Virus record (IMG/VR): IMGVR_UViG_3300029286_000086
Location: 1 to 43,741 of that record
Direction: 5' to 3' (one strand)
DNA length: 43,741 nt
Source of the DNA: a virus
Below the pieces are notes generated by a model. It ran no database searches. It was not told the DNA's origin and saw only the letters and a program-made list of their open reading frames with translations. Every line of letters starts with the position of its first letter. Position 1 is the stretch's first letter. This document shows positions 2,379 to 43,741 of this stretch, piece after piece. The translations under genes and the position numbers were made by a program.

Positions 2379-2389
2379 TATATCCGACT

Positions 2390-2484
2390 ATGCTAAAAAT
2401 CCCATTTTTAGCATATCTGGAAAGTTTTGTGTGGTCATAATCACACATAACCCAGAAGCTTTGCATGGTCTTAGCCATGCAAAG
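2390..2484 (+). promoter_or_regulatory. Three consecutive hairpins in the ku leader
   Basis: Three perfect inverted repeats follow each other in 95 bp. The first is ATGCTAAAAAT-CCC-ATTTTTAGCAT (2390-2414, 11-bp stem). The second is TGTGTG - 8 nt - CACACA (2428-2447). The third is CTTTGCATGG-TCTTAG-CCATGCAAAG (2459-2484, 10-bp stem). The last one ends two bases before the AAGGAGG ribosome site of ku. They could be operators for dimeric regulators, or RNA hairpins acting as a terminator/attenuator (the first has a T5 run in its right arm) and as control of the ribosome site. Confidence 0.7.
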
Positions 2485-2499
2485 TAAGGAGGTCAGACT

Positions 2500-3267
2500 A
2501 TGACAGGAACAATGAAGGCGGGCGCAACCCGCAGGACATTGACCATCATGGTCGGCAAGCTTCCTCTGGTTGTCAAGTATAACGCGGTCTCGAAAGAGGC
2601 TGAAAGCGGCAACCATATGTTCAGCCCGTCAGGCAATCCGATAAAGCTAAAGCGGATTGACGCGGTGACTGGCGAGGAAGTTGCCTTTGGCGACATAGTC
2701 AAAGGCAGGGAGATAGGGGATAAGGTCATCCTCTTTTCCAAAGCCGAACTTGATAGCGTCAGCGCAAAGAGCGAAGGCACGGTCTCGAAGGTGCAGGTCG
2801 TGGATTGCCCGAACATCCCATCTGAGAATGTAAGGGTGAGGTATTTCGTGCAGCCGCAGAACCAAACCTTTTGGGACATGATAGGCGGCAGGCTGAAGGC
2901 GCGGAAGCAGGCACTCAGGTTCATCTGGGTGGGCGGAAGCCAAGAGAGGGAAAGCTACCTGTATTTTGACGGCGACGTGCCGACATTGGTTCAGATGCTA
3001 TTCCCAAGCGAAGTGCTTGAGAAGCCGAGCATACCGACAAACGACAATGCAGCAACGGCGGCAGGGATTGACGCGCTTCTTGACATCTTCAGGAACACCG
3101 ACATCCCGACGCCTGAGGAACAGCGCAACAAGGCGATGGATGAACTGATTGAAGCGAAGCTGACAGGCAAGGAACTCCCTGTATTCGAGACACCCAAGAC
3201 ATCCAAGACGCAGACAGCAGAGGACTTGCTTGCCGAGAGCCTAATCTTGGCGAAGGCGAGCAAATGA
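2500..3267 (+). CDS. ku: Ku-family DNA end-binding protein
   Basis: A 255-residue protein that matches the bacterial/archaeal Ku core throughout. KLKRIDAVTGEEVAFGDIVK (residues 49-68) corresponds to the Ku segment with conserved GEEV and a following KG, then KVILFSKAELDSVSAKS, a strand into YFVQP, and FIWVGGSQERESYLYF followed by LVQMLFPSEVLEKP. Length agrees with short prokaryotic Ku proteins. Prokaryotic Ku forms a homodimeric ring on double-strand ends and recruits a ligase for end joining. Some mycobacteriophages carry Ku to close their genomes. The C-terminus is a linker (ETPKTSKTQT, encoded by a dispersed repeat copy) and a short helix. GGAGG lies 7 nt before the ATG. A ligase gene lies about 5 kb downstream on the same strand. 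Confidence 0.85.
   Translation: MTGTMKAGATRRTLTIMVGKLPLVVKYNAVSKEAESGNHMFSPSGNPIKLKRIDAVTGEEVAFGDIVKGREIGDKVILFSKAELDSVSAKSEGTVSKVQVVDCPNIPSENVRVRYFVQPQNQTFWDMIGGRLKARKQALRFIWVGGSQERESYLYFDGDVPTLVQMLFPSEVLEKPSIPTNDNAATAAGIDALLDIFRNTDIPTPEEQRNKAMDELIEAKLTGKELPVFETPKTSKTQTAEDLLAESLILAKASK
3189..3210 (+). repeat. Dispersed 9-nt-unit repeat, copy 2
   Basis: The sequence begins GACACCCAAGACATCCAAGA. It encodes ETPKTSKT in the C-terminal linker of Ku. It is close to copy 3 in the VWA gene, with ETPKTLKT. Confidence 0.6.
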
Positions 3268-3383
3268 AACCTTCAGGTGTGTTCGGATATATTCCCTGCG
3301 ATAGTTGCAAATCTGCAATCTCTCCAGAGGAATACAAGAAAGGAAAAGGATTGTGTATTCCGTGCGTGCGGGCTATGCAATAA
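3264..3383 (+). CDS. Tiny zinc-knuckle protein
   Basis: A 39-residue protein with CDSC (12-15) and CIPC (31-34), spaced as in a single zinc finger. The ATG overlaps the ku stop codon (ATGA), so translation is probably coupled. It resembles the product at 6172-6303 in size and layout. Both may be adaptor-like zinc proteins. No family assigned. Confidence 0.6.
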   Translation: MKPSGVFGYIPCDSCKSAISPEEYKKGKGLCIPCVRAMQ

Positions 3384-3395
3384 GGAGGTAAGGTT

Positions 3396-4268
3396 ATGCC
3401 AAAGCAGATTGACATAGATAAAGTCCGAGACAAAATCGGATTTATCGACGAGAATGGAACTGTCCTGCCCGAACTGGCATACGCCCTCAACAACGGCGCA
3501 AACGTCTTGATGACCGGCGACACAGGAACGGGAAAGACGTTTGTAGCCGAGCAGTTGTGCGAGGCGGTTGGCTGGAAATATTCCACGCTCAACTTCTACA
3601 ACACGACCAACGCCACGAAAATCCTCGGCGGGTATAAGCCCGTCGAGGGTAAATTCCTCTGGCTTGACGGCGTATTGACCGAATGTATGCGGGAAGGCAA
3701 GGTCTTTATCGGCGAGGAGGCTAACTTCATGCGAAGCGATGTCTCCTCGGTTCTTTATCCGATAATGGACTTCAGAAGAACGACGGTGCTTGATGAACAT
3801 CCGTCTCCCTCTGAAATGGAGAAGGGGGTTTTCAAGCCTGAGATTGTGAAGGCGCATCCTGATTTCAGGATTATCCTCACCTGCAACCTGAATTATCGCG
3901 GAACCGAGAAGTTCAATGCCGCGATAAAGAACAGGATAGGCAGCTATATCAGGGTGGATTACCTCACGGCGACGCTCGAAAGCGCGTTCATCGTGAAGAA
4001 ATTCGGGATTGACAAGGAGGTGGCGGCGAAGATGTGCAAGGTTGCCGCATCCCTGCGCGCCAACAGGGAGAAGACAGGCTACGACCCTGTTTCTACTCGT
4101 ATTGTCGAGGAGTGGGCAAGGCACATATCAAAAGGCATCCCTCCTCTCCAAGCCGCGCAGAACACCATTGTGCCGTGCATCACCGACGACCCGAAGGAAC
4201 AGGGAACGCTGACCGAATTCATATTCGGGCAGTTCAACGCGAAGAAACGGGGTGACGACGATGACTGA
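3396..4268 (+). CDS. MoxR/CbbQ-type AAA+ ATPase
   Basis: A 290-residue AAA+ ATPase. Walker A is GDTGTGKT (41-48), the Walker B region is VFIGEE (103-108), and a sensor segment reads ILTCNLNYRGTEKFNAAIKN with an arginine-finger-like R just after. This is the layout of the MoxR/NirQ/CbbQ group, ATPases that remodel partner proteins together with a VWA-domain protein. The gene overlaps the next one, which is exactly such a VWA protein. Such pairs are also seen in some archaeal and bacterial tailed viruses, but their viral role is not settled. GGAGG lies 7 nt before the ATG. Confidence 0.88.
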   Translation: MPKQIDIDKVRDKIGFIDENGTVLPELAYALNNGANVLMTGDTGTGKTFVAEQLCEAVGWKYSTLNFYNTTNATKILGGYKPVEGKFLWLDGVLTECMREGKVFIGEEANFMRSDVSSVLYPIMDFRRTTVLDEHPSPSEMEKGVFKPEIVKAHPDFRIILTCNLNYRGTEKFNAAIKNRIGSYIRVDYLTATLESAFIVKKFGIDKEVAAKMCKVAASLRANREKTGYDPVSTRIVEEWARHISKGIPPLQAAQNTIVPCITDDPKEQGTLTEFIFGQFNAKKRGDDDD

Positions 4269-6108
4269 CGACCCGAAGCCATTGCCAATCAGGCATCCAA
4301 GCGAGGGAATTCCCTGGTCGGAACTGGCAGGAATGGCTACAGCCAAGCCCCACACGGAAGACGAGAAGGCGATTGAGAAACGCCTCAACCTAGAAGCCAA
4401 TATGCTGACTCAGGTTCTTCTTGGAAGAACGGTGGCGGTCTCGCTTGGAAGGTTCGGCGACGAGAAGTTCGGGACATCGGTTGATATGGAAACCGGCAAG
4501 GTGAAGATTGCCTATCTCACGAAGGATGAGGAAGTCCTCAAAGGCTCTCTTTATCACGAGATATTCCATGTCCTGCTGACCGAAACGCCGGACTACAGGA
4601 AGCACGGCGTTCCCGACGAGGATTTGAAGCTGCTGCATCTTCAGCTCAATTCGCTTGAGGATTACCGCATCGAGCATATCGGCGGCACGAAGCTGTATCC
4701 GCCTGCCGACTACTATATCTGGTGGGCGGCGCGGTGGTGGAGGCAGAAAGGCGTTCATTCGCGCCCAGTCGGCTCGATTGCCGATAATCCTATGATGTGC
4801 CTGCACTATCTTCTCGACAACATGGATTTGACGAGGTTCGTGGCAGACAAGGCTTTGAGGAAGGAGATACGCGCCATCGCAAAGGAGCTGAAGGAGAAGA
4901 AATTCTACGAGTTGAACACAACTGAGGAATTATTCCCTCTGGCGCGCGATGCCTATTACCGCCTCAAGCCATGGTTGCCGGCAGATAAAGAAGCCGGTGC
5001 TGACATGGAAGGTGCAATAGTCTCAGGAGTCTCAGGTGCGGGAGAGCGCAAGAAGGCTCTTTTTCCAGATGCTTCCAAAGTTGGAGCCGGTTTGGAGACA
5101 CCCAAGACATTAAAGACATCGGAAGAAGCACTCAAGTCCATGATTGAGAAAAAGGCGGAAGCCGTTGCTGAGGGCGAAGGAAGCCTCAAGGCTGTCAGCG
5201 ATAGCCCAAGGATTACAACGGAAAAACAGGAGAAAGACTATGCACGCCCCTACACTCCCCAGATAAGGGTTTTCCATGAGCCGATTGAGGGAGGAGAAAA
5301 GATAATTCTCGACCCGAACATGCAGGCTGAAGGCAGGCGTATAGGAAGGGAACTGACACAACTCCTAAAGCTGGAAGACCGAAGCAAACAGCATTGTGAG
5401 GATGGCGACTTGGATATGGATGCCGTTTTTCAGGGCATTATGGAGGGCAGAGGCAGCCTTCGGAGGAAAGATATATTCTCAACCGAGATACCTTTAATCC
5501 GAAAGCACACCGTCCTCATACTGATAGACTTCTCTGGGAGCATGAGAGGGTATAGGGAGACGTGCGCTCGCAACGCCGCGCTGATGATTGGCAGCGCACT
5601 GGATGAAATGAATATAACATACGCGGTGCGCGGGTTTGGCGCGGAAACCAACAAGCTCGTGATTGCGGATTTTGTCCTCAAGGATTTTGGTCGCCCACTA
5701 GACCTTGATAAGCTTGCTCGACACAATAGCGGGCAATATGGTCAGAACAGGGACAGCGACAGCCTGCGGCGCGCGGTTGAGGTCATCAAAGGAGAAAGCG
5801 GGAAGAAAATCATTTTCGTAATCTCCGATGGGCAGCCGGCTCACCCGGATGGCGTGAAGGATTACCGTGCCTTCAACAAGCAATCTCATATGGATATGAT
5901 ACACGCCATCCGCGACGCTGAAGACATGGGTATAAGCGTCATCGGTGTAGGCATCACGGCTGATGCCGCCGAATTCATTGAGACCGCATACAGCAAGGGC
6001 TTCTTTATTCAGAAGCTCGATGAACTGCCTGAGAAACTCATTGAAATCTACTTGAAGGAGACTGAAGAACTGCGCGGGAACAGGTTTCATGCCTTTACAA
6101 TGGCATGA
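4261..6108 (+). CDS. VWA-domain protein with N-terminal HExxH
   Basis: A 615-residue protein, partner of the MoxR ATPase. The N-terminal part carries HEIFH at about 99-103 and EDYRIE at about 133-138, an arrangement known from CobT-like and related MoxR-linked proteins with a metallopeptidase-like domain. The middle (about 245-330) is a low-complexity linker that includes a dispersed repeat copy (ETPKTLKT). The C-terminal third is a von Willebrand A domain with the metal-binding DFSGS motif at about 423-427. ATG at 4261 is preferred over a GTG 9 nt upstream because GGGGTGA ends 5 nt before it. It overlaps the ATPase gene by 8 bp. The pair probably acts as a chaperone/remodelling machine. Confidence 0.85.
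   Translation: MTDDPKPLPIRHPSEGIPWSELAGMATAKPHTEDEKAIEKRLNLEANMLTQVLLGRTVAVSLGRFGDEKFGTSVDMETGKVKIAYLTKDEEVLKGSLYHEIFHVLLTETPDYRKHGVPDEDLKLLHLQLNSLEDYRIEHIGGTKLYPPADYYIWWAARWWRQKGVHSRPVGSIADNPMMCLHYLLDNMDLTRFVADKALRKEIRAIAKELKEKKFYELNTTEELFPLARDAYYRLKPWLPADKEAGADMEGAIVSGVSGAGERKKALFPDASKVGAGLETPKTLKTSEEALKSMIEKKAEAVAEGEGSLKAVSDSPRITTEKQEKDYARPYTPQIRVFHEPIEGGEKIILDPNMQAEGRRIGRELTQLLKLEDRSKQHCEDGDLDMDAVFQGIMEGRGSLRRKDIFSTEIPLIRKHTVLILIDFSGSMRGYRETCARNAALMIGSALDEMNITYAVRGFGAETNKLVIADFVLKDFGRPLDLDKLARHNSGQYGQNRDSDSLRRAVEVIKGESGKKIIFVISDGQPAHPDGVKDYRAFNKQSHMDMIHAIRDAEDMGISVIGVGITADAAEFIETAYSKGFFIQKLDELPEKLIEIYLKETEELRGNRFHAFTMA
5097..5120 (+). repeat. Dispersed 9-nt-unit repeat, copy 3
   Basis: GACACCCAAGACATTAAAGA and four further bases. 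In frame in the VWA gene linker, encoding ETPKTLKTS. Confidence 0.55.
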
Positions 6109-6130
6109 ACTTGTTCGGAAAGAGCATACC

Positions 6131-6140
6131 TTTATATAAT
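6131..6140 (+). promoter_or_regulatory. TATA box before the gene at 6172
   Basis: TTTATATAAT is centred about 36 nt before the ATG at 6172 and lies in a 63-bp gap after the VWA gene, so a new transcript likely starts here. Confidence 0.6.
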
Positions 6141-6171
6141 AGGTATGTTGTAATGAAGGAGTGTGATAAAG

Positions 6172-6303
6172 ATGGCTGGAAGAAATCCGACAGTTTGGCA
6201 GTGCCAGTCCGACCCGAAGCATAAAATCATCGGGAAGAATGGTTTCTGCCTTGAATGTGCTGCCTATACAGGCAAAAGAGTAGAAAGTTGGAGAGGTGTT
6301 TGA
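6172..6303 (+). CDS. Tiny zinc-knuckle protein
   Basis: A 43-residue protein: WQCQSDPKHK followed by GFCLECAAYTGKR. Cys and His are placed as in a small zinc finger (C11, H17, C26, C29). GGAGTGTGAT precedes the ATG. It directly abuts the next gene (TGA then ATG), and has its own TATA box, making it the first gene of a new transcription unit. Function unknown. Confidence 0.6.
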   Translation: MAGRNPTVWQCQSDPKHKIIGKNGFCLECAAYTGKRVESWRGV

Positions 6304-7632
6304 ATGCTACACGCATTGGAAATAGAGGCTCTCAACGACATTGTCAAGAGCGCTGGCATCGACCCAAAGAAGGGGGAGCGAGTGATAGACTTGCGCCTTT
6401 CCTTCGCCGAGAACAAGCGCGTCATCCGCGACTGGATGAAGGCGGAAGGCAAGGTCACAGACCTGCGCACGGAGATTGTCGTGGAGAAGGAACTTTCCTC
6501 CAAGATGGCGAAAGCCCTCAAGGAGGAAGTGGAAGCGAAAGAGGAGGAGAAATATGTGGCGGTGTCTCCCCGCAAGAAGGAAATAAACGACGCAATCCTG
6601 AAACGGCAGGATGAAATCATGAAGGAGATTATCGACTACAATCCCCACATGATGAACGTCACCTATTCTACGCTGTTCGCGGTGATGAACGGCAAGAACG
6701 GGAAACAGAAAACGAACGTCATCAACATGGGCAAGCACGGAACGGGCAAGTCGAGGGGGACTTCAGACCTGCTGACCGGGCTTGACATAAGCGACGCGGT
6801 GATTATCCGTGGCTTCATGACTCCGAAGAAGGTCTATGACACGCTGAAGAAGCATTTCGCTTCCACGGTGTGCTTCGACGAGGCGGAGAACATCATGAAC
6901 GACGAGATGTCGATGTTCATCCTGCGCCCCGCCATGTTCGGAGGCAAGGTAAGCTGGCTATCAAGCAAGGGAGAGGCTCTGGATGAATTCGACTTCACCG
7001 GCACGGTGATTGCCAACATGAACCACTTCGGTGTGACCGAGGCGGCTGCGGCTCCGCTGTTCGACAGATGCCTGTTCAACAACGTGAACCTCGACAGCCA
7101 TCAAATCATCGAGAAGATACAGAGCGCGAACACATACAGGAAGAACGAGGCGTTATGGACGCTCATCAAGGAGAAGATTGTCCTGATACGGCGTGAAGGC
7201 GTTGAGGAACTCACGGAAGCCGAGGAGGAATATGTGATGTCCTTCATCGTGAAGATAGCCAACGCCTCGTCGGTGTTCAACAAATCCCTGTCGGCTCGTG
7301 CGCGAGGGAGGGCGTTGCTCGTGGCACGATGCCTCAAGAGCCTGTTCATGTCCTTCGACAGCAAGGTGAAGGAACTGTTCGAGACGATTGCCAAGCCCTA
7401 TGTATCGACCGACGACGCTGACGACATCTGCGTCAAGATATTGAAAGCCAATCCGAAACTGTCAAGAAAGGAACTGGCGGAAATAATATCGGAACAGAAA
7501 TCAATCAGCGACAGGCAGGCGACGAGGCTGATAAAGGCGGCGATAGAGAGAGGGGTGCTGATAGCCCTGAACCGCACGACGGTATTAATCAACGACGGAA
7601 AACCGCACGAAACAACGGAGGTAGTATCATGA
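6304..7632 (+). CDS. AAA-type P-loop ATPase with C-terminal winged helix
   Basis: A 442-residue protein. Residues 1-120 are helical and charged. Walker A is GKHGTGKS (143-150), Walker B TVCFDEAE (188-195). A sensor-like segment FTGTVIANMNHFGVTE and a following FDRCLF complete an AAA-type module. The last 60 residues (SRKELAEIISEQKSISDRQATRLIKAAIERGVL) look like a winged helix. The combination fits a viral DNA-dependent ATPase: replicative helicase, helicase loader or initiator. It differs from the second, MCM-like ATPase at 9631. AGAGGTG lies 5 nt before the ATG. Confidence 0.7.
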   Translation: MLHALEIEALNDIVKSAGIDPKKGERVIDLRLSFAENKRVIRDWMKAEGKVTDLRTEIVVEKELSSKMAKALKEEVEAKEEEKYVAVSPRKKEINDAILKRQDEIMKEIIDYNPHMMNVTYSTLFAVMNGKNGKQKTNVINMGKHGTGKSRGTSDLLTGLDISDAVIIRGFMTPKKVYDTLKKHFASTVCFDEAENIMNDEMSMFILRPAMFGGKVSWLSSKGEALDEFDFTGTVIANMNHFGVTEAAAAPLFDRCLFNNVNLDSHQIIEKIQSANTYRKNEALWTLIKEKIVLIRREGVEELTEAEEEYVMSFIVKIANASSVFNKSLSARARGRALLVARCLKSLFMSFDSKVKELFETIAKPYVSTDDADDICVKILKANPKLSRKELAEIISEQKSISDRQATRLIKAAIERGVLIALNRTTVLINDGKPHETTEVVS

Positions 7633-7988
7633 GCGAGATAAGGAATGGGATAAGAACGGACAAGATGGTGGGCAGGTTCCAGATAGCCATCTACTGGGGA
7701 AGCCCGACATGCGCCTCGGTGGTGAGGGCATGGGATGTCGGCGAACATCCGACCATCATAAGGCAGAACCAATACCCATCTTGGCAGATATACGAGGGGG
7801 ATTACGACGAGGCGAAACGGGTGTTCGATGCCCTCACGGATGAATTCGAGGTGGATAGGCGGTGCGACCCGATGAAGCGCAACCCGCGCCTGACGAGAAG
7901 CGAGGACATCGAGGAATTCAGGCGAAGATACCCGACGATAATGAGGAACCTTGAAGGTGATGCAAGTGGAAGAACCAACAGACGATAG
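7629..7988 (+). CDS. Hypothetical protein
   Basis: A 119-residue protein with a probable mixed alpha/beta first half (FQIAIYWGSPTCASVVRAW) and an arginine-rich, charged C-terminus. It starts in an ATGA overlap with the ATPase gene behind GGAGGTAG and overlaps the next gene. No family recognised. Confidence 0.6.
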   Translation: MSEIRNGIRTDKMVGRFQIAIYWGSPTCASVVRAWDVGEHPTIIRQNQYPSWQIYEGDYDEAKRVFDALTDEFEVDRRCDPMKRNPRLTRSEDIEEFRRRYPTIMRNLEGDASGRTNRR

Positions 7989-8226
7989 GACGCCTGAACA
8001 GAAGGCGCGCGATGCGATTGAGGATGCGAAGCGCAGAAGGGAGGCAGACAGGAAAAGGCGCGTCAATTCATACGGCATCCTCAACAGGAAGATTGACCTG
8101 AGCAAGGAGGTTCAACGGGCTGCAAGGGCGATGTGCAACTGCGGCGCATACGAAACCGTCGGGCAGGTGGCTCTCCACAAGGAGAGCTGCCCGGTGGTGA
8201 GGTTGGCAAGAAGCAAATTGAGGTAA
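7966..8226 (+). CDS. Hypothetical Cys/His protein
   Basis: An 86-residue protein with a basic helical N-terminal half (EQKARDAIEDAKRRREADRK) and a C-terminal CNCGAYETVGQVALHKESC segment, whose Cys and His could bind zinc. The GTG at 7966 is chosen because GGTGAT ends 4 nt before it, as with several other genes here. It lies 5 bp before the ligase gene, so the two are probably co-expressed. Confidence 0.55.
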   Translation: MEEPTDDRTPEQKARDAIEDAKRRREADRKRRVNSYGILNRKIDLSKEVQRAARAMCNCGAYETVGQVALHKESCPVVRLARSKLR

Positions 8227-8230
8227 TTCT

Positions 8231-9112
8231 ATGAGTGAAAAAACATGTATGCTGGCGCAAGCTGGCGACGAGACGAAGATTGACCAGATGATTGCATCCG
8301 GCAACTGGCATTTCGAAAGGAAATACGACGGGGAACGAGGCGTGATGCAAGTAGTTCGCGGGGGAGGTCTGCTTATTGTCTATCTCCGCAACAGGCAGGG
8401 AAAAACAATCAACACGCAATTCCCCGAACTGGTCGAGATGGGAAAGCATCTCCCTTCGGGAATTTACGACGGAGAGATATACGTTCCTTCCAACTCAGCC
8501 AACAAGGACAAGCCGACTACGGCAGGAAGGACATCGGTGGGGGAGGCAGACGCGAAGCTGCGCGCGAGGATAAATCCTGCGACGTTCATGTGCTTCGACG
8601 TATTGGAATTCGAGGGTGAGAACATTGAAAAGAAAAATTATGAGGAAAGGAAAGCTCGTCTATCCGAGGTATCTTCTCTTGGAATTGTCGGGTTTAAAGG
8701 CGTCATGCCTGAGACAAATCCTAGAGCTGCTTGGGATGAAATTAGGGGTTCTGGGGACGAAGGCATGGTTGCTAAGCGGAGAGGTAGCCCCTACTCACAC
8801 ACGAGAAGTCCGCATTGGTGCAAACTCAAAACTTGGAATGAGGAGGACTTCGACGTAGTCGGCATCACATCGGAGAAGCGGGAAGTCTCGGCACTTGTTC
8901 TCGACAACGGAATGAAGGTGAATTGCGCCCTCAATGGAGAGGCGTATGCAGCCCTCATTGCAGACCTCGTGAGAAGCGGAGAGATAATGAAGTGCGCCGA
9001 CGGAACGACGGCAACGAAACTCACCAAGCACTACAGAGCGAAGGTGAAATTCCTGAACAAGTCGGCAAGCGGATTGCGCTTCCCGATACTGCACCAACTG
9101 GAGGGATTTTGA
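8231..9112 (+). CDS. ATP-dependent DNA ligase
   Basis: A 293-residue ligase made of the catalytic core only. Motif I is KYDGER (31-36), with K31 the lysine that would carry AMP. The DGE motif III is at 80-82, FMCFDVLEF follows at 119-127, EGMVAK (motif IV) at 177-182, and the KLK of motif V at 198-200. The C-terminal ~90 residues fit an OB-fold. Compact ligases of this type resemble the ligase part of LigD and other virus ligases, and seal nicks or joined ends. With Ku on the same strand, it is the natural partner for end joining, though nick sealing in replication is an equally simple role. GAGGT precedes the ATG. Confidence 0.9.
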   Translation: MSEKTCMLAQAGDETKIDQMIASGNWHFERKYDGERGVMQVVRGGGLLIVYLRNRQGKTINTQFPELVEMGKHLPSGIYDGEIYVPSNSANKDKPTTAGRTSVGEADAKLRARINPATFMCFDVLEFEGENIEKKNYEERKARLSEVSSLGIVGFKGVMPETNPRAAWDEIRGSGDEGMVAKRRGSPYSHTRSPHWCKLKTWNEEDFDVVGITSEKREVSALVLDNGMKVNCALNGEAYAALIADLVRSGEIMKCADGTTATKLTKHYRAKVKFLNKSASGLRFPILHQLEGF

Positions 9113-9630: not shown

Positions 9631-11796
9631 ATGGAAAGACTCATGGAAAGACCACCTACTCAACCTCCAAACCCGCTTCCAACGACACCGTTCTTGTGTC
9701 TTATGTGCGACGAGCAGTATAAGGAACTTCCTGAAAATGGAAAGTGCCGGAACTGCGGGCGCATCGCTGTGGAGATAAACCCATGGCTCCCAAAAGAGCC
9801 GAAGGAACCGAAGAAAATAAGCTCGCTGATGCGGCATCTCGTGGAAATAATGCAGCTTAAACTGCGCGAGGCAGGAGTTCTGGACGTGGCTCTCCTTGTA
9901 AAATGGCAGGAAAGCACCGGGCTTTCCCCTGAGGAATTTCTCCAAAAAGCGAAGGAACTTGCGGCAACGAACAAGCACCTCGACATATCCCCTCTTGAGG
10001 ACTACCTGCTTGCCACAAAATCGGAGATTATACAGGATGACGCACCGAAAAAGACGAGGGCGAGCATAGAGCTTGTGAACGCCATACTGCCCATGCTCCA
10101 GAACAGCAACGGGTTTATCACGCTCAAGACGGAACTGCCCAACTCGTTCGAGCAGGTCAAAAGCGGGATAAGAACGGCATTGAATGACTACATAAACATC
10201 AACATCAACGCCGCGCCTGACGACCTGATACTCCCCTTCATAATCACCAAGGAACGCAGCATAGAAGGGAACGTCCTTGCCAATCTCGACGCGACGAAGA
10301 AAGCCATAACCCTCTTGGTGGCTTACAAGAACGGCAACGAACTCCTCTATCAGTTCTTCGGAGAGCCGAAATGGAACAAGCGGCTCACCCCGTTTGCGAG
10401 ATACACGCACCTTTTCTTCGTCTATAAATTCATGACAGACGACGGAGAGGAGATGGTTCTTCTTTCCCCGACACAGCTTGAACTGTCGAACTGCCGCATC
10501 AACGGGATGGAGGCAAGCACCTACGACTTCGTGAAGATAGGCAACATGGCGAAGCTGAACACCACGCAGAAGATAATATTCGTCCACTCGCAGGAACCTG
10601 AGATAAACAGGCTCAACGAGATGGCGTTCTGGGGAACCGCTTCGCGCATAGACGACCCTGACAAATGCTACAAGGCGTTCTTCGGGAACTATCCGCACCC
10701 GAAATGGTTCGCCGAGTTCATAACCGCGTGGATGTTTTCCGGCAAGCTGGACAACATGCCCACCCACCTGTCTTTGCTGTCTCCGCCGTCTTTGGGAAAG
10801 ACAAGGATGATGGAAAACATCGCGCAGGTATTCAGGCAGAAGATAAACGAGGGCGGCACGATAAAGGGCTTGGTTCCGTCATTTGCCAACGGTGTGCCGC
10901 GCGAAGGGTATTTCATCAGGTGCAAAAGATTTGGCTTTGTGGATGAATTCATCCACATCCTTGCCTATTCCAAAGGCAACCACGCGATTGACAGTTTCGA
11001 TGGAGGCTCGTCGCTTCTTCTCAAGGTGCTTGAACATTCCGAAGGGGAACACTCGTCAGCCTTCGGCATCATCACTGCGAAGCCGCGCATGTGGAGCCTG
11101 TTCGTGTCGAACATAAGACCTCACGAGCAGATACGGAACTTCGTGGATTTGCATGGAAAGCTCAACGCGGCTTTCATGTCGAGGATTTTGTGGTATGTCT
11201 ATAATCAGGAACACATAGACTACATCAACAAGAACAAGAACTATGTGATGAAGTTCACGGCGGATGACATGCCGCAGTATTCCCCTGACTTGTGCGCTCT
11301 TGTGGATTATCTTCACATGATAACGCTTGACATACCGCACGAGACCGTGTCTGCGATACTCGAAAGGAACAGGAAGTTCGTGCCTGCACAGATAATAACC
11401 GACATCTACGACAGCAGGATGGTCATGCACATCTATCGCATATTGGATGGGTATGCAAAATACAAGTCGATAGTCGAAAGGCGCGGCGCATTGGTATGCA
11501 CTCCTCAAGACGTTCAGGACGTTGATGCCATGTTCGAGCGCATCGTGAAGTCATGGAGCATAGGCGTTGAGCAGGAGAAGCTGCCTCCCATGCTGAAAAT
11601 AAGCTATCTGAACAGCATGCAGCGCGAGGTCTATGAGCTGATACACAGCATGAAGGACATCGACCAATACGAGCTTGAGAAGGCAATGGGTCTGACGGCA
11701 GACCAGATTGCGCGCGAGCTTCAGAAGAAAGGGCTTGTGAAGGAAGTCCTCGGTTTGGGCAAGGTGATACATTGGTTGCCATACGACATAGAATAG
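9631..11796 (+). CDS. MCM-like AAA+ replicative helicase
   Basis: A 721-residue protein. A zinc knuckle lies at the N-terminus (C23, C26, C39, C42). The AAA+ part has a Walker A-like SPPSLGKT (384-391), Walker B GFVDE (435-439), a sensor segment SLFVSNIRP and an MSRILW arginine finger with R518, the order seen in MCM helicases. The last ~80 residues (YELEKAMGLTADQIARELQKKGLV) are a winged helix, as in archaeal MCM. The N-terminal ~300 residues are not recognisable and may hold a DNA-binding or initiator part. ATG at 9631 follows GGGTGA by 4 nt. No DNA polymerase is encoded here, so this helicase likely recruits host replication proteins. Confidence 0.75.
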   Translation: MERLMERPPTQPPNPLPTTPFLCLMCDEQYKELPENGKCRNCGRIAVEINPWLPKEPKEPKKISSLMRHLVEIMQLKLREAGVLDVALLVKWQESTGLSPEEFLQKAKELAATNKHLDISPLEDYLLATKSEIIQDDAPKKTRASIELVNAILPMLQNSNGFITLKTELPNSFEQVKSGIRTALNDYINININAAPDDLILPFIITKERSIEGNVLANLDATKKAITLLVAYKNGNELLYQFFGEPKWNKRLTPFARYTHLFFVYKFMTDDGEEMVLLSPTQLELSNCRINGMEASTYDFVKIGNMAKLNTTQKIIFVHSQEPEINRLNEMAFWGTASRIDDPDKCYKAFFGNYPHPKWFAEFITAWMFSGKLDNMPTHLSLLSPPSLGKTRMMENIAQVFRQKINEGGTIKGLVPSFANGVPREGYFIRCKRFGFVDEFIHILAYSKGNHAIDSFDGGSSLLLKVLEHSEGEHSSAFGIITAKPRMWSLFVSNIRPHEQIRNFVDLHGKLNAAFMSRILWYVYNQEHIDYINKNKNYVMKFTADDMPQYSPDLCALVDYLHMITLDIPHETVSAILERNRKFVPAQIITDIYDSRMVMHIYRILDGYAKYKSIVERRGALVCTPQDVQDVDAMFERIVKSWSIGVEQEKLPPMLKISYLNSMQREVYELIHSMKDIDQYELEKAMGLTADQIARELQKKGLVKEVLGLGKVIHWLPYDIE
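11504..11529 (+). repeat. Possible divergent copy of the 9-nt-unit repeat
   Basis: CTCAAGACGTTCAGGACGTT and six further bases keep the 9-nt periodicity, with GACGTT in place of GACATT. It encodes PQDVQDVDAM in the helicase. It may be related or a chance likeness. Confidence 0.3.
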
Positions 11797-13910: not shown

Positions 13911-14184
13911 AGCAACCTACGCCAACTTGGAAGATGTCTATAAAACGCAATTCCAAGAAGGCTACAAAAAAGGGCAAGCCGACCTGATAGAGAAACTGAC
14001 AAGCAAAGACATAAACAAGATAGCAAGTATTGTGTTCTGGGACAACATGAAAAGTGAGGTTGAGAACTACGATGCAATAATGGCACTCGCAATCAAGGCA
14101 GCTATAAAAGCAGCAGCAACAACAGCAATAAAGCAAAGAGCTTCGCTCTTTGCTACGGAGGAGGCAAAGGAGGTCAAACAATGA
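13906..14184 (+). CDS. Reading frame without a clear start, possible frameshift continuation
   Basis: About 92 residues that look coding (VYKTQFQEGYKKGQADLIEK, then an Ala-rich helix) but without an ATG/GTG and ribosome site near its beginning. The only nearby start is a TTG at 13927 with no good site. It lies in the +1 frame relative to the gene ending at 13910, and the two overlap, so a single +1 shift or one sequence error would fuse them into a protein of about 160 residues. The boundary given is where coding likeness begins, not a proven start. Confidence 0.4.
   Translation, partial: NEATYANLEDVYKTQFQEGYKKGQADLIEKLTSKDINKIASIVFWDNMKSEVENYDAIMALAIKAAIKAAATTAIKQRASLFATEEAKEVKQ
14132..14154 (+). 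other. Perfect 10-bp hairpin inside a gene end
   Basis: AGCAAAGAGC-TTC-GCTCTTTGCT lies in the last codons before the nuclease gene and just ahead of its GGAGGAGG ribosome site, so it may limit access to it or slow translation. Confidence 0.6.
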
Positions 14185-14540
14185 GTGCAGTCTCACGTGG
14201 AAAAGCCTTCGAGAACTTCGTCGCAGACCAGCTCAAGCAGATGGGCTACCACATAGCCTATAAGTCGGTGCGTATGCGCTTCGGGGCTATCGACTTCGAC
14301 GGGATGTGGGATATTGTAGCGGTCAAGAGAGAAGGGTATCATACGCTTGCAACTTCAGAAAAAGTATATGAGGTTAAGTGGATGTTTGTGCAGTGCAAAT
14401 CCACGCGCATGTATGGGCAGGAAAAGCAGAAGCTCATCGACTGGATGCACACCTACGGCTTCGCCGGGATAAACTGCATGATAGCGGTGAAGACGAAGCA
14501 GGGAAGAAAGACCGCCATTGAGTGGCATACGCTGTCCTGA
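14181..14540 (+). CDS. PD-(D/E)XK nuclease, Hjc-like
   Basis: A 119-residue nuclease of the archaeal Holliday-junction-resolvase type. RGKAFENFVADQLKQMGY carries the first acidic residue (E11). The catalytic core is D44 in GMWDIVAVK and Q71-C-K73 in MFVQCKSTRMYG. This matches the E...D...(E/Q)xK order of Hjc/VRR-type nucleases of similar length. It would resolve branched replication or recombination DNA before packaging. It is the last gene of the rightward arm. An ATGA overlap links it to the frame before it. Confidence 0.75.
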   Translation: MSAVSRGKAFENFVADQLKQMGYHIAYKSVRMRFGAIDFDGMWDIVAVKREGYHTLATSEKVYEVKWMFVQCKSTRMYGQEKQKLIDWMHTYGFAGINCMIAVKTKQGRKTAIEWHTLS

Positions 14541-29481: not shown

Positions 29482-30408
29482 CTACTCGCTCTGGATGTCC
29501 TTCAACACGCAGATTGCCTTGGAGTAATTCACAGCAAAGGCGCAGCGCATGTTGCTCTGGATTTTCCAGTCGTCGGTGTCAATCAGGTAGAATTTATTGA
29601 GGCGCAGTTCCCTGCGGTTGGCGAATATGCCGCACTTGCCCCTTGCCACCATGATTGCTTCCGTAGCGGTAGTAGCCGTTCCACCTGTTAGGTTGGTCGG
29701 GAGTTGGGTTGTCTCGATGACGTCGATGCCCCAGATTTTTCCGACAATCCCGCTTCCAAGCGGAGAGCTTCCAAACGACACCATGTCGAGCAGGGGTGCA
29801 TTGGAAGTCGTGCTTTGCTTGAGTTTCCTTATCTTGTTGGTCAGCTTCGGGTGTATGATAAGGTCTGTCGGGATTATGTTCTGAGACCTCATTGCCGAGA
29901 TTGCGTCGGAAATCTTGTCCGTTGTAATCTCCCCGCCGACTGCAACCGAAAGGATTGCCGTGTCTGCGGTCGTGTCCCTCATTCCGTTGAAACCTCCTGT
30001 GGATGTGGTTCCGTTGTAGATTTCATAGTCCACCTTGAGGGCTATGTCCTCCGCAAGCCGGTTCACGATGATGTCCATGATGCTCGGATTGCTGTCCTCC
30101 ATCACCTCTGTCGAGAGGCGCGAGAGAGCCGCGACCTTCTTCGGGTGCAGCACGAGCTGACCGAACGTTGGCTGGCTTGCGGTTATGGTTCCAGCCTCCT
30201 CGGTGAAGTATGCGGTGCTTGCCGCAGTCACCTTGGGGAAATACAGCGTGTCGGACGTCATGGTGACGTTTTCACAGAGCCGTATCGCACTGGACTTTGC
30301 CAGTATCATGTCGTATATTTTTGAAGCCCAGACTTCAGGAACAAGATAGCCACCTTGTGTGTTGGTGTTCTCGTTCAAAGCCTTGAGCAAACTTTCCGGG
30401 TTCGCCAT
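29482..30408 (-). CDS. Major capsid protein, HK97 fold
   Basis: A 308-residue protein with the phage capsid family layout: GGYLVPEVWASKIYDMILAK at the start, AYFTEEAGTITASQPTFGQL, KKVAALSRLSTEVMEDSNPS, then LIIHPKLTNKIRKLK and a C-terminal DDWKIQSNMRCAFAVNYSKA. It lacks the long delta-domain of HK97 gp5 because that role is in the protease/scaffold gene just upstream. GGTGATTTAA precedes the ATG. It builds the head shell. Confidence 0.9.
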   Translation of the reverse strand: MANPESLLKALNENTNTQGGYLVPEVWASKIYDMILAKSSAIRLCENVTMTSDTLYFPKVTAASTAYFTEEAGTITASQPTFGQLVLHPKKVAALSRLSTEVMEDSNPSIMDIIVNRLAEDIALKVDYEIYNGTTSTGGFNGMRDTTADTAILSVAVGGEITTDKISDAISAMRSQNIIPTDLIIHPKLTNKIRKLKQSTTSNAPLLDMVSFGSSPLGSGIVGKIWGIDVIETTQLPTNLTGGTATTATEAIMVARGKCGIFANRRELRLNKFYLIDTDDWKIQSNMRCAFAVNYSKAICVLKDIQSE

Positions 30409-31326: not shown

Positions 31327-34167
31327 TCACCTGAGTTCGTAATTTATGTTCATCCCGGTTCCATTGAGGGTATAGCCGTAGAACCACACGGTTTCATTGT
31401 ATCCTATCCTGATTATCCCGCTTCCCCAATTTGCTTCAATCCCGCCTGTAGTCCACGCCGAATATGCCGTTGTGTTGGTGGCTCCGGCTGAAACGTTTGC
31501 CGTAAGTTTCATCAATGCGTCGCTTCCATACACCAAATTGTGGACGATACATCCTCCTTCCACAAGGCATTTTGAGCTTGAGAGAAGCTGAAGTATGTTT
31601 GAATTGTAAATGGGGGTAAGCGGCGCATAATCGACACCTCCCGCCATTTTTCCTTGGCTGCTTGTCCAATCATAAGCTCCAACTCCTATATAAAGCGGGG
31701 GAATAGACGACGTAACAATTCCAAAAATTGCCACGCTCCCGTTCATCACGTTCGCATATATGTTCCCCTGGTTCTTGCTGTCATATGTGCAGTTGTAGAA
31801 GTTCGAGCCGTTCAGGTCCGTGACGTATGCCCCGCTTGTCGCGGTGAAATTGTTGAGGCAGAAGGTGTTGCCGCTTGCGTTTGCGTCAAGGTAGAGAAGC
31901 GTGGTGGCGTTCAGTATCGTGTTGTTGATGAGCAGGTTGCCGGTGTTGGAGCCTGTTTGGAACGTTACTGCCCGTGTTGCAGCCAGACCGTTTATGGTGG
32001 AGTTGGCTATGGTGTTGTTGGCGCAGTTGCTGTAGATGAACAGTGCGCCGTAGGTGTTGTCTTTGCCGTTGATTTGGGAGTTGGAGATTGTGTTGTTGGA
32101 GCTTATGTAGAGGTAGATGCCCCCGAATGTGCCTGCTGTTCCTGTTGAGTTGGAGATTGTGTTGTAGCTGGAGCTTATGTAGAGGTAGATGCCCCCGAAT
32201 GTGCCTGCTGTTCCTGTTGAGTTGGAGATTGTGTTGTAGTTGGAGCTTGAGTAGAGGTAGATGCCCCCGTATGTGCCTGCGGTTCCTGTGGAGTTGGAGA
32301 TTGTGTTGTAGCTGGAGCTTGAGGAGAGCATGATGCCCCTTCCTGCAAGCGAGTAGCCGCTTGAGCCGGTTATGGTGTTGTAGTTCGCGCCGTTGTAGAG
32401 GTAGATGCCGTTTCCGCTTGGGAGGGAATACGCCGCCGTTGTGTGCGTGGTGGTGTTTTCGATTGTGCCGTTGTCGGCTCCTTCAAAGTAGATACCCGTT
32501 GCGAAGTTGCTTATGTTGCAGTTCCTTATTGTCGTGTTGAACTGGCTGGAGTAGATGCCGTATTTTCCCGAGGTGTTGGCGCCGATGATGGATTTGCCTT
32601 GGCAATCAATCGTGTTGTTCTCGCCGCTGTTCACGGATATTCCCGCGTTTGCAAGGGATGTGACGTTTGTGTTGTAAATTAGGTTGTTGTTTGACGAGCT
32701 GTCGAAATATATTCCTGAAAGTGACGATGCGCCGGAAACCGAAAGCACTTCCGAATTGTTGATGGTATTTCCGTTGCTTGAGTAGATATATATGGGAATC
32801 CCTGTCTGCGAGGTCGCCTTGTAGTTGTTTAACACGTTGTTGTTCGACGCAGCATACAAGAACACTCCCCTTCCAGAATCAGCCGTTACGGTGGTGTTTT
32901 CCACGGTGCCAGATGTAGTCGCATATATGAACAGCGCGAATCCGCTTGTGACGCTTATGCTCACATTCGACACGCTTTGGTTTGCACTATCCCTAAGATG
33001 GATGCCTTGTCCTACTATCACGCCATCATACGTCTTTGTCGTTGTGACGCTCGTGTTGGTTATTGTGCTGTTGTCCGAGTCATAGAAGTATATGCCCGTT
33101 GCGAAGTTGCTTATGTTGCAGTTCCTTATTGTCGTGTTGAACTGGCTGGAGTAGATGCCGTATGTGCCGCTCGAGTTGTTCCCCGTCACCGAGAAGCCCG
33201 CGCAGTCGAGGGTGACGTTCGCGGCGGTCACGGTGAAGCAGGTGGAGCCGTCGATTGAGGCTGAGGCGTTCATGGTGTAGACGGTGTTGGCGCTTGCGAG
33301 TTCGCCGCAGGCTGATATGTCCGGGTCTATCTCATAGGAATAAGCCCCCGCCACGATGGTGACATTGAATACGCCACGCTCGAAGTTGTCCGTGTAAAGC
33401 CTGAACGCCCACTTGTCGGTCAGGGACGTATTGACGAAATCCGTTGTGTCGCCCAGGTCGAGCTGGAGATAGTCACGGTAGGTGGCTGGATATTCGGTTG
33501 TTCCGTTCTGGTAGGTTTCGTTGCGGCAGTCGTGGTGCGGAATGACTTCTGTTCTTTCGAGATAGGTTTCGTTCCAGCAGTCAGAATGGAATATTTCCTC
33601 CGTTCCGTTCCAAACGCTTTCGTTGCGGCAGACAAGTTCCGGCTCGCACATCCCAAGCCCAGACTCATCGAAGCACGGAAACGTGTCGCATATTTCCTGA
33701 GTATAGTATATTGGATTGCTTTCGGTGTAATTGTAGCACACCTCCCTCTCGGCGTAGATTGGGTTGCTCTCATTGTAGTCTTCGCAGACTTCGCGTGTTG
33801 AATAGGACGGCTCGCTGTATGCCGCAGACATCTCGCGCGCGACGGTTGTCTTGTTGAAAAGCGGGATGGCATCGACCTTTGAAATCGGAATGGTAGCCTT
33901 GATTTGGGAAAGGTCTATTTTGTAGGCGACCTGCGTGTTGCCGTTGAAATCGACGTAATAGAGGTGTTCGGTGTGGTCGGAGAATATTTTGTTGCTGTCC
34001 TCCATGCTGATTGTCACGCCGTATTCGGTCTTGCTTGGGAAGCCGGATTGGATGTAGTAGTGGTCGGCTTCGATGAACGAGCCTGTGACCTGTGGGGCGG
34101 CAGGCTGTGTGCATCCGCAAAGGAGCAACGCCACGAACAATGAAACGGCTGCAAGCTCACGGAACAT
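31327..34167 (-). CDS. Lipoprotein-like NosD/pectate-lyase beta-helix surface protein
   Basis: A 946-residue secreted protein. The signal segment LAAVSLFVALLLCGC with two Cys (17 and 19) looks like a lipobox. Then a beta-rich, NxS/T-rich part with repeated Cys segments (EVCEDYNESNPIY, EVCYNYTESNPIY). From about 280 a long right-handed beta-helix of NosD type follows: NNTISNSTGTAGTFGGIYLY rungs, four of them near-identical at DNA level (69-72 bp). The final ~85 residues (CIVHNLVYGSDALMKLTANV to GMNINYELR) are shared with the next protein. It lies between portal and protease, an unusual place. Likely a virion or host-surface adhesin. AGGTGG precedes the ATG. Confidence 0.7.
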   Translation of the reverse strand: MFRELAAVSLFVALLLCGCTQPAAPQVTGSFIEADHYYIQSGFPSKTEYGVTISMEDSNKIFSDHTEHLYYVDFNGNTQVAYKIDLSQIKATIPISKVDAIPLFNKTTVAREMSAAYSEPSYSTREVCEDYNESNPIYAEREVCYNYTESNPIYYTQEICDTFPCFDESGLGMCEPELVCRNESVWNGTEEIFHSDCWNETYLERTEVIPHHDCRNETYQNGTTEYPATYRDYLQLDLGDTTDFVNTSLTDKWAFRLYTDNFERGVFNVTIVAGAYSYEIDPDISACGELASANTVYTMNASASIDGSTCFTVTAANVTLDCAGFSVTGNNSSGTYGIYSSQFNTTIRNCNISNFATGIYFYDSDNSTITNTSVTTTKTYDGVIVGQGIHLRDSANQSVSNVSISVTSGFALFIYATTSGTVENTTVTADSGRGVFLYAASNNNVLNNYKATSQTGIPIYIYSSNGNTINNSEVLSVSGASSLSGIYFDSSSNNNLIYNTNVTSLANAGISVNSGENNTIDCQGKSIIGANTSGKYGIYSSQFNTTIRNCNISNFATGIYFEGADNGTIENTTTHTTAAYSLPSGNGIYLYNGANYNTITGSSGYSLAGRGIMLSSSSSYNTISNSTGTAGTYGGIYLYSSSNYNTISNSTGTAGTFGGIYLYISSSYNTISNSTGTAGTFGGIYLYISSNNTISNSQINGKDNTYGALFIYSNCANNTIANSTINGLAATRAVTFQTGSNTGNLLINNTILNATTLLYLDANASGNTFCLNNFTATSGAYVTDLNGSNFYNCTYDSKNQGNIYANVMNGSVAIFGIVTSSIPPLYIGVGAYDWTSSQGKMAGGVDYAPLTPIYNSNILQLLSSSKCLVEGGCIVHNLVYGSDALMKLTANVSAGATNTTAYSAWTTGGIEANWGSGIIRIGYNETVWFYGYTLNGTGMNINYELR
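32078..32330 (-). repeat. 69-72-bp tandem repeats in the beta-helix gene
   Basis: GAGTTGGAGATTGTGTTGT starts at 32078, 32147, 32219 and 32291. Each unit encodes one 23-24-residue beta-helix rung. Units are nearly identical, so the number of rungs probably varies between related viruses. Confidence 0.8.
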
Positions 34168-34168
34168 C

Positions 34169-34846
34169 CTAGCCCACCTCATAATATATGCTCATGTTCG
34201 TGGATGACGCATAAGGCGTCGCATAGATTGACAGGGTTTCGCCCATGCCCCATCTTATAAGACCAGACCCGGCATTGGACATCGTTCCGGCAGGAGACCA
34301 CCCTGCGAAGGCAGTCCGAACAACTCCTGAAACGGAAGTGATGTTGTGGGTCGTCTTAATCATCCCGTCGCCGCCGAAAATCAAATTCCTGAGAGTGCAG
34401 CCTGAAGGGGTTGCACACATCCTCTGCGCTCCGAAATTCGGCGCGGTGTTCCCCGCGGTGATGTTGAGTATCATGACGCCGCTTGCGTTATTGATGGTGA
34501 CCACTCCGACAGCCGCGCTTGAGAGCCTTGCCCCGTAGACAAACGCGAAATCAGCCAACGACGATGAAGTGTTGGTGTCTATCTGCGTGGTTCCGTTCAT
34601 CGTGAACGTCGCGCTTCTCTGCGTGTATGCGCCTGTCATGTAGTAAATCGTGAGCATCTGGTTGTCGCTTGCGCTCGTGCTGTTCAGCAGGAGATAGGTG
34701 TTGGAACCGCCTGTCTGGATTGGGAAACCAGATGCAAGATTTGTAGCCGTTCCTGCGGTGGAAAGTGTTCTCTCCATGAAATCCGCGCTTGCGAACGAGG
34801 TCAAAAGCAAGACCCCAAAAACCAACTTTAAGATATTCTCAAACAT
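34169..34846 (-). CDS. Secreted protein sharing a C-terminal domain with the beta-helix protein
   Basis: A 225-residue protein with a signal peptide (ILKLVFGVLLLTSFASA) and a Ser/Thr/Asn-rich body. The last ~85 residues (CTLRNLIFGGDGMIKTTHNI, then GSGLIRWGMGETLSIYATPY to STNMSIYYEVG) align with the end of the following beta-helix protein. The shared part may be an anchor or a capsid-binding/surface-binding domain. GGTGAT ends 4 nt before the chosen ATG. It overlaps the portal gene by 8 bp, so it is made with structural proteins. Confidence 0.65.
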   Translation of the reverse strand: MFENILKLVFGVLLLTSFASADFMERTLSTAGTATNLASGFPIQTGGSNTYLLLNSTSASDNQMLTIYYMTGAYTQRSATFTMNGTTQIDTNTSSSLADFAFVYGARLSSAAVGVVTINNASGVMILNITAGNTAPNFGAQRMCATPSGCTLRNLIFGGDGMIKTTHNITSVSGVVRTAFAGWSPAGTMSNAGSGLIRWGMGETLSIYATPYASSTNMSIYYEVG

Positions 34847-36304: not shown

Positions 36305-36313
36305 TATATATAA
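36305..36313 (-). promoter_or_regulatory. TATA box for the portal operon
   Basis: CTTATATATA on the leftward strand is centred about 28 nt before the portal ATG, as expected for a leaderless archaeal transcript. Confidence 0.65.
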
Positions 36314-36327
36314 GCGTATGCAATCAG

Positions 36328-39951: not shown

Positions 39952-40143
39952 TCACCTTTTTCCTTTTTGTTCGGCGTTCGTTCGGCGTTCGTTCGCGGCT
40001 GTTGCGGGAGGAACGGAGAGGCATCCGTATCCGTCGGCACGGCAGGCGTCGCAGTAATGGCGGTTCGTGCGCCGCCTTCCTTCGACGACACGCCTGCATC
40101 TCCGGCAAGACCACTTAGGGAGTTTGCTTTCGCCTTTCCTCAT
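39952..40143 (-). CDS. Small basic zinc-finger protein
   Basis: A 63-residue, Arg-rich protein with CRRCRRVVEG and HYCDACRADGYGC, a four-Cys zinc site. The tail is encoded by an 11-bp tandem repeat (GGCGTTCGTTC on the + strand). It overlaps the end of the exonuclease gene by 29 bp and has GGAGGCGA upstream. Likely nucleic-acid binding. Confidence 0.55.
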   Translation of the reverse strand: MRKGESKLPKWSCRRCRRVVEGRRRTNRHYCDACRADGYGCLSVPPATAANERRTNAEQKGKR

Positions 40144-40849
40144 GTCCGTTCGCCTCCTTCAGCCGCCACGCGGCGAAATCCGGGAAGTGTTTCACGACAT
40201 TGTAAAGGCGAGCCGTGGCGGTGAGGTCTGTGGCGTTGTGCTGAAGCATTTCGAGATGGTCGTTTTCGGTGAGGAGCTGCGGGTTCTTGTAGATGCGCGC
40301 GTTCCACAAGCCCTCGGATTTGCGGGGGACGTAGAGATTGGCGAGCTTCCGGCAGGCGTCGTCCTTGGAGAGGCGGCGACCCGTGACGAACCGCGCGTAG
40401 CCCATGAGGTCGATGTGCGGAGTGTCGAAAAGGAGCGAGGAGGTGTTTGCATGGGTTTCAAGTTTCGTTTTCAGGAATTTCGAGGAGACGAACGGAACGT
40501 CGAAACCTATGCCGTTGTAGGAAAGGATTGACTGCCCTTCGGAATATTTGAGGAAATAATTGGAGAAAGCGTTGATGCACTCCTTCTCGGCGAGTTCGAG
40601 GGAAATCTTGTAGGTGTCGAAGGGAGCCGAAAAAATCTGCATGCCGAATTCGTCCATGCAGCCGATTGCTACGATGTAATCCTCGGTGACACCATTGGCA
40701 ATCATTTCAGGAGTAGGGGACGGATAAAGCCCCGAACTTTCAATATCTATCGTGATAATATCAAACACCTCTAAATCTTCCTTTTGCATCCCTTTTTCCA
40801 GCATGAATAGCGTTGAGATTTTTCTTCCATTTTTCATTATGCAGTTCAA
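40115..40849 (-). CDS. 3'-5' exonuclease, DnaQ/PolB-exonuclease-like
   Basis: About 244 residues. Exo I motif IDIESSG with D35 and E37, Exo II YNGIGFD with N112 and D117, and Exo III-like HNATD with D208 are present, the order seen in stand-alone homologues of the PolB exonuclease domain. No polymerase domain follows. It may proofread, trim ends for joining, or degrade host DNA. The TTG at 40849 is chosen since GGAGG lies 6 nt upstream and it overlaps the stop of a tiny frame. An in-frame ATG lies 4 codons later. Longer upstream readings overlap another gene. Confidence 0.75.
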   Translation of the reverse strand: MNCIMKNGRKISTLFMLEKGMQKEDLEVFDIITIDIESSGLYPSPTPEMIANGVTEDYIVAIGCMDEFGMQIFSAPFDTYKISLELAEKECINAFSNYFLKYSEGQSILSYNGIGFDVPFVSSKFLKTKLETHANTSSLLFDTPHIDLMGYARFVTGRRLSKDDACRKLANLYVPRKSEGLWNARIYKNPQLLTENDHLEMLQHNATDLTATARLYNVVKHFPDFAAWRLKEANGHEERRKQTP

Positions 40850-40902
40850 CAGATGCCTCCTCTCCATTTCGGGTTCTTTGAACCGTGTTTGTCGTAGGTC
40901 AT
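40846..40902 (-). CDS. 18-residue coupled frame with HNH-like motif remnant
   Basis: MTYDKHGSKNPKWRGGIC. The ATG overlaps the stop of the RHH/zinc gene (ATGA) and its stop overlaps the TTG start of the exonuclease. GSKNPKWRGG is a phrase common near the start of HNH-type endonucleases. It may be a leader peptide for coupling, or the remains of a broken or frameshifted nuclease N-terminus. Confidence 0.4.
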   Translation of the reverse strand: MTYDKHGSKNPKWRGGIC

Positions 40903-41210
40903 GGTGCGAAGCCTCCACAACTCTTTCCTTCCTCGGAACACTGTTCGCACCTGTCTTTGATGGTCGGCGGTGTTTGCCGCGACCTTCCCATGTTTTCGGG
41001 ATAGTGATGAACGAGAGAGTGACCGCAAACCGAACACGCTTTCTCTTTTGATGACGCGGGTGTCTTGAGCTTCTCGGAGAGTGTGACTGTATTGTCCAAG
41101 GCACGTCGGCAAACTTCGGAGATTGAGATGCCAAGGTCTTTGCAGGCGGCGGTGTATTCCGATTTCTTTTCCGTTGAACAGACGAAATTGATGATGGTCT
41201 TGTTTTGCAT
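40899..41210 (-). CDS. RHH regulator with zinc-finger tail
   Basis: A 103-residue protein. Residues 1-43 form a ribbon-helix-helix (KTIINFVCSTEKKSEYTAAC then a second helix ISEVCRRALDNTV). The C-terminal half has CSVCGHSLVHH and CEQCSEEGKSC, likely one zinc. It is the first gene of the leftward arm. The ATG at 41210 lies about 26 nt from a TATA box and has no ribosome site, so it is probably leaderless. A likely regulator of the divergent control region. Confidence 0.7.
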   Translation of the reverse strand: MQNKTIINFVCSTEKKSEYTAACKDLGISISEVCRRALDNTVTLSEKLKTPASSKEKACSVCGHSLVHHYPENMGRSRQTPPTIKDRCEQCSEEGKSCGGFAP

Positions 41211-43461: not shown

Positions 43462-43662
43462 ATGGCAAAGGCAACAGCAAAGGCAACAAAGGCAACGGCG
43501 AAAACAAAAATAAGCATAAGCACCGACGAAATCCAGACCCTCTTTAAAAAGGGGAAACTGCTTATTGCTTCTGATTTCGGGCTGGTCGAGCTGAACTGGC
43601 TTGGCTATTCCTCTCCAATTGCGCCAAAAATCAGGGTGTTTATTGGTATAAGAGAGTGGTAA
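43462..43662 (+). CDS. Small basic-tailed hypothetical protein
   Basis: A 66-residue protein: a Lys/Ala/Thr-rich start (MAKATAKATKATAKTK) like the disordered tails of DNA-binding proteins, then STDEIQTLFKKGKLLIASDF and a beta-like end YSSPIAPKIRVFIGIREW. GAGGTGA lies 4 nt before the ATG. The gene runs into the terminal repeat, so its end is also present at the very start of the window. Confidence 0.6.
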   Translation: MAKATAKATKATAKTKISISTDEIQTLFKKGKLLIASDFGLVELNWLGYSSPIAPKIRVFIGIREW

Positions 43663-43741
43663 TGCCGCGCATCAAAGCGACACAACGCCAAACAAATTCC
43701 CACAATTTCATCTGCCATTTATGTAAATGTGGCTGTAATTT
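43599..43741. repeat. Terminal direct repeat, right copy
   Basis: Second copy of the 143-bp end sequence. It ends inside the first part of the 57-bp repeat unit seen at 119-236, with a c in place of the a found in both left copies. If this is a real difference and not an error, the array around the closing point may hold more than two units. Confidence 0.9.

Follow-up and report, generated by a model that had tools for sequence, protein, structure and literature searches.

A divergent Ku homologue and a LigD-like ATP ligase in a likely archaeal head-tailed virus: a possible end-joining pair

Does a virus that probably infects archaea bring its own machinery for joining DNA ends? This question is raised by two genes of the window, which is the whole IMG/VR record of 43,741 nucleotides analyzed here. 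A Ku homologue (2500-3267, plus strand) and an ATP-dependent DNA ligase (8231-9112, plus strand) had been read in an initial annotation as a possible archaeal viral end-joining module. As stated there, both lie in the same rightward arm; they are separated by 4.96 kb and several genes.

Identity of the Ku homologue and the ligase

The Ku gene encodes a protein of 255 amino acids, begins with ATG behind a good SD site (AAGGAGGT) and shows coding-like codon use in its own frame only. The profile check proposed with the initial annotation gave a match to PF02735, the Ku beta-barrel domain in Pfam (2e-10, 41.3 bits vs. a curated cut-off of 25). PHROG 4873 (“Ku-like DNA end binding”, PHROGs) is matched over residues 14-245 (6.6e-11), and residues 27-244 align to 20-252 of the 259 model positions of NCBIfam TIGR02772 (Ku_bact, 1.5e-18), with a score of 67.2 bits that lies under the equivalog cut-off of 150 bits. 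A comparison with 17 other Kus by hhalign gave 98.9% at an E-value of 2.1e-17, and the protein shares 20-26% identity with the other Kus compared. Judged from its sequence, the product is a divergent prokaryotic Ku, a member of the Ku superfamily that cannot be classed as an equivalog of bacterial Ku.

The previous claim that the gene reads as Ku through its whole core stood as far as the identity is concerned, which Pfam, PHROGs, NCBIfam and hhalign agree on, but the signal comes mainly from the N-terminal half. Scored with a Ku profile built without the window Ku, the full length reached 60.6 bits, the N-terminal part (residues 1-125) reached 48.9 bits and the C-terminal part (residues 126-255) just 8.6 bits, which is about shuffle level, as the top of 2000 shuffles was 10.0 bits. 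That the C-terminal half probably belongs to Ku follows mainly from its collinearity and from the match to DELIEAKLTGKEL, which is a conserved segment close to the end of the Ku core; compared with bacterial Ku, the part ahead of this segment lacks several residues. The core is followed by a short C-terminal helix, whereas the lysine-rich extended C-terminus present in many bacterial Kus is missing. An AlphaFold model of the protein was poor (mean pLDDT 46.9) and was set aside as proof of the fold because of this low confidence. The best 50 Foldseek matches of this model in the PDB were all Ku or Ku complexes (prob 1.00), headed by the Bacillus Ku core on DNA; as the alignment given to the model held Kus, we count this agreement as weak support for a Ku fold.

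The ligase (293 amino acids) has the size of a nucleotidyltransferase plus OB-fold unit similar to the LIG domain of LigD and carries no POL or PE domain. In line with the initial reading of a complete set of ATP-ligase motifs, all catalytic residues are kept (K31-Y-D-G, E82, F122-D123, E177-G-x-x-A-K182 and K198), and the protein matches PF01068 (4e-21, 76.1 bits vs. a Pfam cut-off of 26.2) and phrog_114 (2.5e-28). The best NCBIfam family is TIGR02779, the NHEJ ligase domain represented by LIG of LigD (2.5e-30, 105.8 bits), with far lower scores for dnl1 of the archaeal/eukaryotic replicative type (45.8 bits) and haloarchaeal LigA (33.3 bits). Furthermore, the nearest PDB sequence is the ligase domain of M. 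tuberculosis LigD. The description as LigD-like is backed by this family ranking and by the size of the catalytic core, but it expresses a likeness and not membership, since the score is below the equivalog cut-off of TIGR02779 (227.75 bits). A structural model of the ligase (pLDDT 71) fits archaeal ligases about equally well as the LigD ligase domain. Neither a LigD POL domain (TIGR02778) nor a PE domain (PF13298) was found in the whole window genome.

Between Ku and ligase are located a CobS/MoxR-type AAA+ ATPase (3396-4268, plus strand; phrog_249, 4.7e-39) and a CobT-like VWA protein (4252-6108, plus strand; PF11775, 1.7e-9; phrog_1576, 2.1e-16), and a TATA-like site at 6131 marks a possible separate promoter. 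The gap of 5 kb with these two genes argues against a dedicated operon.

A complete virus genome and its likely host

The window ends in an imperfect terminal direct repeat, the left copy of which (1-143) is identical to the right copy (43599-43741) at 141 of 143 positions, with two mismatches, which indicates that the record is a complete genome of about 43.6 kb. Genes for TerL, portal, protease and an HK97-type MCP were found, and the window is a complete genome of a head-tailed virus (Caudoviricetes). At the level of sequence it is established that this one genome carries both genes intact, one a homologue of Ku and the other of NHEJ-type ligases.

Using capsid and terminase we found nine sister contigs with a capsid identity of 77-91%, all of which stop before the Ku-ligase arm. 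Searches of these contigs for Ku and ligase were empty because the contigs do not reach the early arm. One of them (G002, 33.4 kb) ends about 500 bases past a gene for an Hjc/Mrr-like PD-(D/E)XK nuclease, which is located at 14181-14540 (plus strand) in the window and is conserved in this sister. A scan toward the sister early arms with an Hjc alignment again recovered G002 alone, ending just there, and single-protein scans of IMG/VR with Ku, ligase and the AAA+ gene yielded no close relatives. Two source metagenomes (3300035698 and 3300025698) belong to a study of Ace Lake, Antarctica (PMC8542988).

The assignment to an archaeal host is based on promoter geometry. The portal gene has no SD site, and a TATA box (CTTATATA, 36307-36314, minus strand), which is kept in sister viruses, is located 33 nt before its start, whereas clear SD sites are present at many other genes. 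The window and four distinct diverged sisters have an 8-base TATA box (CTTATATA or TTTAAATA) that starts 30-33 nt before a portal start without SD site; in a fifth sister (L017) TATA boxes are nearby and the start codon is not clear. The shuffle probabilities calculated for these boxes overstate the case, as related sequences were taken as independent and L017 was counted. A TATA box at such spacing in combination with a missing SD site is the geometry of archaeal leaderless promoters and not of bacterial ones. Therefore, the virus is likely archaeal, as had been proposed, but no host genome could be linked to it. A scan of the genome collection with the window Ku returned actinobacterial Kus only (23-29% identity) and neither a host nor a provirus.

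Joint or separate action of Ku and ligase

Viral Ku is on record from mycobacteriophages and one Streptomyces phage (PMC11936186). This agrees with a tblastn search with three different bacterial-type Kus against 50,697 deposited phage genomes, which found Ku in mycobacteriophages and one faecal contig only, and bears out the earlier statement that viral Ku is known mainly from a few bacteriophages. With the window Ku as query no Ku was found in the deposited phages, and the survey thus has a real sensitivity limit. Our searches of phage records and IMG/VR found Ku in no archaeal virus, and the papers covered by our literature search had nothing relevant on Ku or NHEJ in viruses of archaea. 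Eight records with Ku were obtained in an alignment-based scan of IMG/VR, and five of these also carry an ATP ligase close by. The two genes adjoin in three rhizobial-type records (L031/G012, 9932-11444; L032/G013, 9983-11447; L033/G014, 5935-7381) and are neighbours in G017 and G018. Most of the IMG/VR Ku records seem to be derived from genomes of isolates, and their DNA may belong to a prophage or to the host. The rhizobial-type records share with the window the presence of Ku and ATP ligase in a viral-called record, so this pairing is not unique to the window, but their genes adjoin and their Ku is of the typical bacterial type.

Mycobacteriophages Omega (cluster J) and Corndog (cluster O) are also tailed viruses with Ku, and PMC3706429 and PMC4351075, citing Pitcher 2006, implicate this Ku in NHEJ-based genome circularization. 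The window Ku shares only about 21-22% identity with mycobacteriophage Ku, and the window virus has its own ATP ligase and archaeal-type promoters, whereas the two mycobacteriophages checked (W02 and W03) have no PF01068 ligase. Cellular two-component NHEJ relies on Ku and LigD or on separate Lig, Pol and PE enzymes. Like these systems, the window combines Ku with an ATP ligase, here one that resembles the LIG domain of LigD, but it is viral and has no polymerase or phosphoesterase and no single tight operon. In Methanocella, archaeal NHEJ works with separate, non-fused enzymes (PMC4797286), and the ligase of Methanocella paludicola is free-standing as in the window.

In the mechanism that we propose, a Ku homodimer would form a ring that slides onto exposed DNA ends, either those of the linear genome once it has entered the cell or those of replication intermediates that have broken. 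Bound Ku would shield the ends from nucleases and hold two of them together, and the viral NHEJ-type ligase would then seal them, so that the genome circle is closed or breaks are repaired. Here we infer Ku dimerization, end binding, the cooperation of Ku with the ligase and the substrate. We estimate the probability that the virus encodes such a two-component end-joining set, consisting of Ku and its own NHEJ-type ligase, at roughly 0.45. This is favoured by the identity of Ku, the family ranking of the ligase, the complete genome, the precedents in mycobacteriophages and Methanocella and the coupling of Ku and ligase in other records, whereas the possible separate promoter and the lack of an NHEJ polymerase or phosphoesterase count against it. 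The terminally redundant genome could also be circularized by recombination instead of end joining. The wider claim of a first self-contained viral NHEJ in an archaeal virus, which would circularize or repair its genome in hosts mostly lacking end joining, is tentative.

As the main alternative, which is possible if somewhat less likely, the two proteins may act apart, with Ku capping or protecting the viral ends in the manner of phage Mu Gam and the ligase sealing replication nicks. Protection of DNA ends by phage proteins is established: Gam, a viral DNA-end binder homologous to Ku, blocks RecBCD loading (PMC12407980), although the window protein matches Ku and not Gam in Pfam. The C-terminal part of bacterial Ku is credited with stimulating LigD ligation (PMC8656161), and the window Ku, with its weakly matching C-terminal region and without the extended basic C-terminus, would fit a separate role. 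The same holds for the distance between the genes and for the free-standing ligases common in phages; as many phages have an ATP ligase and no Ku was found in them, the window ligase may simply serve replication. Its NHEJ-like class and the adjoining Ku and ligase genes in several other records speak against this alternative. We consider it unlikely that Ku recruits a host ligase or that the viral ligase aids host NHEJ. Mycobacteriophage Ku is thought to use host LigD, in line with the missing ligase in W02 and W03, but the window virus brings its own ligase. In addition, end joining is rare in archaea, as initially stated, with Ku and a LIG domain in 10 of 243 genomes (PMC7719229), so that the virus could not rely on finding a partner in its host. 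Finally, a host or bacterial Ku gene joined by assembly error seems very improbable, even though our searches of viral and genome collections gave no close Ku homologue. Ku lies inside the contiguous rightward arm and is only distantly related to the other Kus compared, and the closure of the genome on itself and the fitting codon usage led us to reject contamination.

Taken together, our best reading of this system is an end-joining or end-protection pair, as a variant of the Ku strategy known from mycobacteriophages. If Ku and ligase act together, viral end joining would be extended to a likely archaeal virus, and a pair without polymerase and phosphoesterase would provide a very small NHEJ system for study. 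A virus with its own Ku and ligase would also bear on the movement of Ku between lineages.

Further features of the genome

Two additional enzymes had been named alongside Ku and the ligase. The Hjc-like nuclease has matches to phrog_6591 and Mrr_cat that point in this direction and are weak (both 0.0018). The free 3'-5' exonuclease (40115-41134, minus strand) is real, with an RNase H fold that is PolB-exo-like, a PF13482 match of 1.9e-8 and an uncertain start codon, but it sits in the leftward arm. In the early genes examined with PADLOC no defence system was recognized; a single weak match to mad8 (18.6 bits) fell on the AAA+ gene, which together with the CobT-like gene (3396-6108) resembles a chelatase-like or remodelling pair.

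The best matches of the capsid protein (29482-30408) among deposited phages are cluster J mycobacteriophages (about 28-30%), a group that also carries Ku; this likeness may be chance, as the window Ku is no closer to theirs. A lipoprotein-like beta-helix protein of 951 amino acids (NosD/Beta_helix, 31327-34182) is encoded between the portal and protease genes, and its gene is placed differently in sister viruses; in L004 and L029 it follows the capsid gene. The record is classed as linear without end repeats despite its 143-bp terminal repeat.

The leader immediately upstream of the Ku start is filled by three consecutive perfect or near-perfect palindromes (2389-2485, plus strand; hairpins 2389-2415, 2416-2456 and 2458-2485), which are stacked directly ahead of the SD site. 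Folded as RNA, this region has an MFE of -50.6 kcal/mol (z -7.5), and a search of Rfam gave no RNA family. The palindromes could serve as a cluster of operators, as a regulated leader or as an origin of replication. At the left end of the genome, a tandem 61-bp repeat (115-236, 98%) is closely followed by a TATA-like site at 243 and by the first early gene.
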